This document shows, one piece after another, positions 4,956 to 7,114 of a stretch of DNA of 64,000 nucleotides. Made by a program: the position numbers and the translations under genes. The stretch comes from Spirochaetae bacterium HGW-Spirochaetae-2. GTDB taxonomy: Bacteria; Spirochaetota; Spirochaetia; Sphaerochaetales; Sphaerochaetaceae. The notes beneath the pieces were generated by a model that saw nothing but the letters and a program-made list of their open reading frames with translations, ran no database searches and was not told the origin of the DNA. Numbering within the stretch: the first letter of the stretch is position 1; the number at the start of each line of letters is the position of its first letter. Location: contig PGXW01000017.1 of assembly GCA_002839355.1 (NCBI GenBank), positions 1-64,000 on the forward strand, given 5' to 3'.

Positions 4956-5000
4956 GTACATACGGACTATCCACCCGGTTGTCGCTAAGGAGGTGTCTAT

Positions 5001-6077
5001 ATGAGCTTGCTGGTTGGCATGGATGATCCTACCATTAATGAAATTGCACGAAAAGTATACGATATCCAATTCGCGCAGGATCCGAACCTCGACAGGTTGT
5101 ACGACGATCGGCAAAAACGGTTGTTTTACCAAGACATCCTGTACAATATCGGCTATTTGAATACTGCCATCAAACTGGAAGACAACTACATCTTCACCAG
5201 CTATGCCACGTGGCTCTACGAGTTGTTGTGCAGCCTGCTGAAACACTTGGATCGGGACCAGATCAAGAACCAAATGGTCGACCATTACTCCTTGCTCATC
5301 AACGAGGCGTCGGAACTTTTCACCGGAGAAGCTGTCCAACTCGCACAAACGTATCTCCGATCAGCCATCGCCGCGACGGAAGATGCGGTTACGAATATTC
5401 CGTATTCCGAGCGATTCCTATCAGGAAAGCATGTGGCCGTACGGCAAGCCTATCTGGGTGCCATGCTCCGAAGCAAAACCCATGAAGCGGCGAAAATCAT
5501 ATCCGATGCGGCAGCTTCAGGCATCCCCCTGGTGGAGATCTACGAGGATATCCTCGAAGAGACCATGCATGAAGTCGGAGAACTTTGGCACAAGAACCAG
5601 ATCACCGTGGACAAGGAGCACTATTGCACATCCACAACCCAAATGGTTCTCTCGCAATTCTATTCGGTCATTTTTTCCCAGGAACGTCGCAACCTCACGG
5701 TGCTGGCATGTTGTGTCGGCAGCGAATTGCATGAAATGGGTGGACGCATGGTCTCCGACCTGTTCGAGTACCATGGTTGGGACAGCATCTACCTGGGAGC
5801 GGCTGTTCCGCAAGTATCCATCTTGGCTGCTGTACAGGAACATAGTCCCGATCTGATCGCCCTGTCGGTAACCATGCCCCACTATCTCATCGATTGTCGG
5901 GACTTGGTGTATTCCCTGCATGAGAAGTTCCCCAAACTGAAGATCTCCGTCGGTGGGCGGGCATTCGAGACAACCGACCACCTCTGGCAAAAGTGGCCGA
6001 TCGATATCTACACAAAGACAGCCCGAGACCTTGTGGAATGGGCACAAGCACAGTTTGGACAGGGTAGCAACCAATAA
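5001..6077 (+). CDS. CarH-type cobalamin-binding sensor protein
   Basis: A 358-residue protein with an unassigned helical N-terminus (1-115), a four-helix-bundle B12 cap domain (about 125-225) and a Rossmann B12-binding domain (about 230-350). The cap shows the CarH photoreceptor signature Wx9EH as W196, E206-H207. The residue after the Trp is H197, the position that in Thermus CarH becomes the upper cobalt ligand after light. The B12 domain has ExHxxG (E242, H244, G247), with H244 the expected lower ligand. The DNA-binding MerR domain of CarH is absent, so output must be protein-protein. AAGGAGG precedes the ATG. The stop overlaps the next start by one base, linking it to a GGDEF protein. 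Confidence 0.9.
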   Translation: MSLLVGMDDPTINEIARKVYDIQFAQDPNLDRLYDDRQKRLFYQDILYNIGYLNTAIKLEDNYIFTSYATWLYELLCSLLKHLDRDQIKNQMVDHYSLLINEASELFTGEAVQLAQTYLRSAIAATEDAVTNIPYSERFLSGKHVAVRQAYLGAMLRSKTHEAAKIISDAAASGIPLVEIYEDILEETMHEVGELWHKNQITVDKEHYCTSTTQMVLSQFYSVIFSQERRNLTVLACCVGSELHEMGGRMVSDLFEYHGWDSIYLGAAVPQVSILAAVQEHSPDLIALSVTMPHYLIDCRDLVYSLHEKFPKLKISVGGRAFETTDHLWQKWPIDIYTKTARDLVEWAQAQFGQGSNQ

Positions 6078-7114
6078 TGGCTGTCAATTTTCTCATACGG
6101 ACAGACAGGTACGGCGTGTTGGAGGAGATTTTCTTCAGCGAGCCGATTTTCCTGATCACCGAACAACACTTGTCCATATTCGACATACTTCACCCTCAAG
6201 TCCTCCCGATTGCCCGCGAACATTTTCACCAAGCCCTGCTTTCCCCTACTGGTGTCTGTAGTGTCGAAGGCTTCAAGCTCCGGGCAATGGATGCGCGAAT
6301 CTATTGCCATATGGTCTCTGTCCAGGAGCATGTCATGATACTTGCCAGTGATACTCCCCTGCCCTTTGGAGGTGGCCAGACGGACCCCAGCTACCATTTG
6401 ATTGGACGCTGTATGGAAAAACTGCTGGAAAAGTCCATCGATACCGAAGACAAGTGGATATCAGCCGTTGCAAACCATTTCGATCAGATACAGATGCTCA
6501 ACAATGAATTGGTGAACACCCACCGCAAGCTCCAAAAGGCGAACGCACAACTGCAGCGGGTGAATGAAGACTTGAACAACAGGTTGGTCAAGGACCCGTT
6601 GACACACCTGGTCAGCCGGTATCAGTACCGGTCTGAAATGCAGATGCTGATCAAACAGAATCCCGATGCGCAAGGTGTATTCTGCTATATCGATATTGAC
6701 AATTTCAAAGGTGTAAACGACACGTATGGACATGCGACCGGCGATTTGTATCTGGTGGAGTTCGCCAAACGTCTCAAGGCTATCGATACGGTATATCCGT
6801 CTATCTGCATGCGCATCGCTGGCGATGAATTCGGCATCTATATCCACGGTATGCAAGAGGTGACGCAAGAATTTGTCGCTATGGTTTGGGAACGCTTCAG
6901 CGATACGGTGCTTTCAAGGCCTATCGAAGCCGAAACCTTGAAGCTGCCCATTTCCTGTTGCCTTGGCATGGCTATCTATGGCACCGACACCAATGATATC
7001 TATCTGTTGATCGATTACGCCGACTTCGCCATGTACACGGCGAAACGCTCGGGAAAACATACATACAGGCTATTCGACAGAATCACTTATCAGAAGGAAA
7101 AGGACCAGCGTTGA
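6077..7114 (+). CDS. GGDEF protein (probable diguanylate cyclase) coupled to the B12 sensor
   Basis: A 345-residue soluble protein: a PAS-like N-terminal region (1-110), a coiled coil (about 135-170) and a GGDEF domain (172-340). Metal and substrate motifs are YIDIDNFKGVNDTYGHATGD (204-223) and the signature loop AGDEF (248-252). Ala replaces the first Gly; some AGDEF enzymes are known to be active. No RxxD inhibitory site is obvious upstream of AGDEF. The start codon overlaps the stop of the B12 sensor gene, so translation is coupled and the two probably work as one signalling pair. An alternative is a degenerate c-di-GMP or GTP sensor. Confidence 0.9.
   Translation: MAVNFLIRTDRYGVLEEIFFSEPIFLITEQHLSIFDILHPQVLPIAREHFHQALLSPTGVCSVEGFKLRAMDARIYCHMVSVQEHVMILASDTPLPFGGGQTDPSYHLIGRCMEKLLEKSIDTEDKWISAVANHFDQIQMLNNELVNTHRKLQKANAQLQRVNEDLNNRLVKDPLTHLVSRYQYRSEMQMLIKQNPDAQGVFCYIDIDNFKGVNDTYGHATGDLYLVEFAKRLKAIDTVYPSICMRIAGDEFGIYIHGMQEVTQEFVAMVWERFSDTVLSRPIEAETLKLPISCCLGMAIYGTDTNDIYLLIDYADFAMYTAKRSGKHTYRLFDRITYQKEKDQR

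Follow-up and report, generated by a model that had tools for sequence, protein, structure and literature searches.

The window analysed here, 64,000 nucleotides of contig PGXW01000017.1 of Spirochaetae bacterium HGW-Spirochaetae-2 (GCA_002839355.1), carries two overlapping genes that we read as a split photocobilin-diguanylate cyclase switch, in which light would convert an adenosylcobalamin (AdoCbl) sensor, the sensor would act on the helical stalk of its partner, and the c-di-GMP output would change; we give this reading a probability of about 60%. The main new result is the association of a particular stalk segment with the sensor gene, and from this co-occurrence we infer a putative contact site. 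The genes for sensor and partner are kept together in distant bacteria. Judging from its sequence, the sensor is probably a CarH-type AdoCbl photoreceptor domain that lacks a DNA-binding domain and is joined to a photoglobin, that is, a standalone photocobilin.

The B12 domain of the sensor

The sensor gene (5001..6077, + strand) encodes 358 residues, with the photoglobin first and the B12 domain second. Read directly, it runs from an ATG at 5001 to a TAA at 6075-6077, and a Shine-Dalgarno-like AAGGAGGTG (4987..4995, +, also read directly) ends 5 bases before the ATG. Pfam recognises the B12-binding_2 four-helix cap (PF02607, E 2.5e-13; residues 148-218, 5442..5654, +) and the B12-binding Rossmann domain (PF02310, E 7e-17; residues 233-328, 5697..5984, +). 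The adenosyl pocket motif Wx9EH (W196-H197...E206-H207; 5586..5621, +), read directly, has nine residues between W196 and E206 (WHKNQITVDKEH), and the lower cobalt ligand motif ExHxxG (E242-x-H244-x-x-G247, here E242-L-H244-E-M-G247) lies at 5724..5741 (+). Both motifs had been reported in a preliminary description of this DNA and are real and correctly placed, as W196, E206, H207, E242, H244, and G247 show no variation in 20 sensor homologues with 26-58% identity. Among the SignatureFinder motifs, GxxW is present as G193xxW196, EH as E206-H207, and GxxxP as G266xxxP270, while in place of GxxH there is SxxH, the nearest glycine (G240) lying one residue too far off.

The preliminary description had also listed H197, the equivalent of CarH His132, as a residue for a bis-His adduct formed after light. 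The histidine is present but not conserved, close relatives having H, Y, or Q at position 197 and remoter homologues other residues. Such an adduct is no more than a possibility for this sensor, because the His is variable, the residue after the Trp is Gln in SasPcob and Tyr in AbDPcob, the solved photocobilins, and a bis-His state does not arise in illuminated SasPcob.

The closest solved structures to the sensor are the photocobilins 8j2w, 8j2x, and 8j2y (E ~1e-19, or 1e-33 to 2e-27 with the sensor family profile), ahead of CarH. The structure prediction against CarH that had been proposed as a check gave a confident AlphaFold model (mean pLDDT 89), and Foldseek superposed its B12 part, cap plus Rossmann fold, on CtMerR and the photocobilins as well as on CarH. 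No MerR or other DNA-binding domain was found in the sensor with Pfam, in agreement with the earlier view of a CarH-type sensor minus its DNA-binding domain; this view holds for the B12 domain, but the closest known proteins are photocobilins, and the photoglobin that makes up the N-terminal half had been missed. A divergent B12-domain protein in which the W is kept and the EH is lost was seen in a related locus (L083, 2299-3402), on the opposite strand and adjoining the 5' end of the sensor gene.

The N-terminal photoglobin

Judging from profile matches, profile-profile alignment, and the helices of the AlphaFold model, residues ~10-131 of the sensor (5028..5393, +), which are all helical, are a bilin-type photoglobin as in known photocobilins, placed at the opposite terminus. 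The match emerged only with a family profile and profile-profile comparison; Pfam recognised no domain in residues 1-~140 of the window sensor itself, and phmmer with the N-terminal 133 residues alone gave no useful match in the PDB. With the family profile, the domain matched the C-terminal globin of SasPcob and of AbDPcob, weakly in each. Alignment by hhalign to the globin of six actinobacterial photocobilins reached a probability of 96% (E 4e-9, score 55), against a maximum score of 19.8 in 200 column shuffles and scores of 9-10 for two wrong domains and a reversed profile. The Pfam Phycobilisome family matched this domain in 2 of the 20 sensor homologues (best 1.6e-5), and its helices are confident in the AlphaFold model. 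Whole-model Foldseek provides no independent test of the globin because the alignment covered mainly the B12 part.

Two residues of the chromophore pocket are invariant in the 20 homologues: D45 (5133..5135, +), aligned with Asp270 of SasPcob, the main biliverdin contact (PMC10979010), and W71 (5211..5213, +), aligned with Trp296 of SasPcob, which is adjacent to the corrin and to ring D of biliverdin. The equivalent of the photoglobin motif CXQD (PMC10151467) is FYQD (residues 42-45) in the window sensor, with the Cys replaced, and CAQD in one remoter locus (L012). The sensors of two other loci (L085 and L086) are ~670 residues long, with an N-terminal extension of ~350 residues, without a Pfam match, ahead of the photoglobin-B12 part.

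A conserved gene pair with a shared stalk

The partner gene (6077..7114, +; 345 aa) encodes an N-terminal alpha/beta domain, a helical stalk, and a GGDEF domain. As described earlier, the sensor stop and the partner start (ATG 6077-6079) share one base in TAATG (6075..6079, +). In related loci the two genes mostly overlap by 1, 4, or more bases or are separated by at most ~6 bases, and each close homologue for which sufficient downstream sequence is available is followed directly by a GGDEF-type partner. Such close pairs occur in Spirochaetota and in several Bacillota/Mycoplasmatota lineages. A similar gene arrangement is found in Ilyobacter (Fusobacteriota), where the sensor is divergent, the photoglobin profile fails to detect its N-terminal domain, and Asn apparently stands in place of the Asp. 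Some relatives depart from the pattern: the sensor of Azospirillum thermophilum has a kinase one annotated gene away, that of Skermanella has no adjacent signalling gene, and a divergent one (L014) showed no stalk partner within the short stretch examined. On Streptomyces plasmids (L070, L072, and L076), standalone photocobilins have a PP2C phosphatase gene on one side and an overlapping STAS gene on the other, which resembles a partner-switch setting.

The stalk of the window partner contains the motif FDQIQMLNNELVNTHRKLQKANAQL (6467..6577, +), which lies within helix 104-169, is coiled-coil-like, and is our proposed sensor contact. Its consensus over ~35 residues is xFxEIxxLNNELxNxQRxLxKxNxxL. 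This helical segment is common to most partners, whether of the GGDEF, GGDEF-EAL (L105 and L044), or histidine kinase type (L080, L012, L013, L082, L106, L107, L067, and L068), the last two types being found in remoter loci; the segment is missing in L015 and L016. Some partners (L082, L083, and L106) contain little beyond the stalk and a kinase or GGDEF domain. The N-terminal alpha/beta domain (residues 1-92, 6077..6352, +), which is PAS-like by the order of strands and helices in the AlphaFold secondary structure and has no Pfam match, was considered as a common receiver and dropped, being weak or missing in several partners in which the stalk is kept.

A search for the stalk in 492 genomes (101 relatives and 391 of the Alkalibacter class) gave 15 matches at E <= 1e-7, and all 15 directly adjoin a sensor gene; most of them are in, or close to, the search alignment, with those of G087, G090, and G577 outside it. 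In G577 the sensor shows the B12 signature, and its N-terminal domain is too divergent for the photoglobin profile. The next matches were at E 2e-4 or weaker, and one of these (G594) also adjoins a sensor. Within the window genome the motif was found in none of 16 other GGDEF/EAL loci, which cover about a third of its 38 GGDEF domains. The top Foldseek match of the partner model was SiaD in complex with SiaC.

Proposed mechanism and chromophore supply

The preliminary description had suggested that the sensor acts on the diguanylate cyclase in trans, and it probably does: the operon conserved across lineages fits this, as does a published case in which an isolated photocobilin altered the activity of a separate diguanylate cyclase by protein contact in vitro (PMC10979010). 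AdoCbl would lie at the interface of the four-helix cap with the Rossmann domain, with H244 below and W196, E206, and H207 around the adenosyl group, and a bilin may occupy the neighbouring globin. The Co-C bond would be broken by green light, or by red light via the bilin, upon which the cap helix would move and the assembly of the sensor change; in SasPcob, the cap helix shifts on photolysis of AdoCbl and the dimer comes apart (PMC10979010). The sensor would then dock on, or leave, the LNNELxNxQRxLxKxN segment of the coiled-coil stalk, and the stalk would shift between inactive and active forms, as with SiaC on SiaD. By analogy with AbDPcob, the cyclase activity of which rises more than tenfold in light (PMC10979010), light would be expected to increase c-di-GMP synthesis. 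In the relatives, the same stalk would carry the signal into a histidine kinase or a protein of the GGDEF-EAL type.

As to the cobalamin chromophore, the window genome has a BtuR-type cobalamin adenosyltransferase, and an adenosyltransferase of one or other type is present in 15 of 18 pair-bearing genomes (G000, which is the window genome, G004, G007, G024, G054, G058, G088, and the genomes of L035-L045). A globin ligand is likely because the Asp (D45) is kept, but no canonical heme oxygenase, and no HutW over the cut-off, was found that would account for biliverdin. The heme oxygenase search covered 22 genomes, the 18 with the pair and 4 relatives without a full-length sensor match (G001, G002, G037, and G048); three control genomes did yield the family. 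Because the 18 include several draft or metagenome assemblies, single absences are weak evidence, but the uniform absence is not. HutW had no match over its curated cut-off in the 18 genomes. Matches under the cut-off occurred in all 18 and in all control genomes as well, and we do not read them as an anaerobilin route. This raises the question of which ligand a bilin-type globin holds in bacteria without canonical heme oxygenase.

A broader proposal, which we consider somewhat less likely than not, is that free-standing photocobilins have in the stalk a docking site of their own, and that this stalk marks a class of two-gene switches for light or B12 in which cyclase, GGDEF-EAL, and histidine kinase outputs can be exchanged. 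Such switches would be used by bacteria without heme oxygenase, where the globin would hence use an outside bilin or another ligand, or AdoCbl status would be read in the dark.

The last of these options leads to the main rival of the light-driven switch, namely that the window pair reads AdoCbl or bilin status in the dark, the apo and AdoCbl-bound sensor engaging the stalk differently and photolysis being incidental. We consider it unlikely, though worth keeping in view because AdoCbl binding alone lowers the cyclase activity of AbDPcob relative to the apo form (PMC10979010) and because several hosts look like anaerobes of dark habitats in which, moreover, no heme oxygenase was found. Some host record names suggest sediment, a place with little light. 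[Clostridium] asparagiforme, the host of L044, is a gut organism and thus also lives where there is little light. Against a dark role, no lineage departs from the W, E, and H that are the hallmark of light-responsive domains; the window also contains no cobalamin riboswitch or other Rfam family, although this says little about the protein.

The output domain

The GGDEF domain of the partner (PF00990, E 3.8e-27; 6590..7057, +) has the active-site loop AGDEF (A248-F252, within RIAGDEFG; 6818..6832, +), which the preliminary description had taken as a possible sign of degeneracy. That suspicion is weakened: among close relatives the GGDEF partners keep AGDEF or SGDEF, R246, G249, D250, E251, and F252 are invariant in 15 partners, and the catalytic and metal residues (D206, N214, D215, R246, and G249-F252) are conserved in the same 15. 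An AGDEF loop does not imply inactivity, because VCA0965, which has one, is an active diguanylate cyclase that makes c-di-GMP (PMC3974145). By its sequence, then, the partner is a stalk-GGDEF protein with its catalytic residues in place, and cyclase activity is predicted. The window genome has 38 GGDEF and 8 EAL domains in 3.6 Mb, a large c-di-GMP network for its size.

The conserved residues and the VCA0965 precedent speak in the same way against a reading in which the GGDEF partner binds GTP or c-di-GMP, or serves as a scaffold, instead of acting as a cyclase, with output by protein contacts only. What favours that reading is the AGDEF loop itself, the absence of an RxxD product-inhibition site ahead of it (sequence read), and the degenerate GGDEF loop of the GGDEF-EAL partner in L044 (7044-8794), in which the reading frame also changes within the gene, before the EAL part; altogether we regard it as improbable. 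Hardly credible is a methyltransferase corrinoid carrier with a GGDEF gene as an accidental neighbour, which would account for the same two Pfam domains and for the best NCBIfam match of the sensor, a methyltransferase corrinoid family far under its cut-off, but not for the N-terminal photoglobin, the conserved pairing with signalling genes, or the set of W, EH, and ExHxxG, which in our comparison of fetched B12 domains separates photoreceptor-type domains from MetH and corrinoid methyltransferase proteins, these having F/Y for W, no EH, and the DxHxxG form, a pattern that the sensor lacks.

Comparison with known systems

The SiaC protein of Pseudomonas aeruginosa binds motifs in the stalk of SiaD and activates it (7E6G, PMC8457831). 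As proposed for the window pair, a stalked diguanylate cyclase is there under the control of a small protein from the same signalling network, and the resemblance is one of working principle only. To our knowledge, SiaC is not a B12 or light sensor.

BBAG-2 and other photoglobins (PMC10151467) resemble the window sensor in that the globin adjoins, or is fused with, a B12-binding protein. They differ in that the genomes carrying BBAG-2 have heme oxygenase, and BBAG-2 lies close to bilin reductase genes (PMC10151467), whereas no heme oxygenase was found in the window genome. CarH of Thermus thermophilus shares Wx9EH, ExHxxG, the His after the Trp, and the cap plus Rossmann fold with the window sensor; its MerR DNA-binding domain gives an output on DNA, whereas the window sensor has no MerR domain, has an additional photoglobin, and would act on a partner protein.

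The nearest known systems are the photocobilins SasPcob (8J2W/8J2X) and AbDPcob (8J2Y), which combine a CarH-type AdoCbl domain with a biliverdin-binding globin (PMC10979010). Like the window sensor, photocobilins unite a CarH-type B12 domain and a bilin-binding globin, retain the key B12 and biliverdin residues, and are linked to a diguanylate cyclase. In SasPcob and AbDPcob the globin is C-terminal, whereas it comes first in the window sensor; this order is not new, because standalone photocobilins have already been noted, as have variants in which the B12 domain is at one terminus or the other (PMC10979010). The cyclase is fused in AbDPcob and encoded by a separate overlapping gene in the window, and the window host differs from known photocobilins in that heme oxygenase was not found in it. 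The stalk of the partner is a feature of the window family, of which we found no description in the literature consulted.

What standalone photocobilins do has been described as less clear, and contact-based control was demonstrated only with test-tube pairings (PMC10979010). The window pair offers such a protein a natural, conserved partner with a specific predicted contact site, and a sensor that drives cyclases or kinases via one short helix would be a useful optogenetic part. Photocobilins and their in vitro action on a separate cyclase are already published, and the window pair would be one of a larger group of two-gene switches in which the output is exchangeable.
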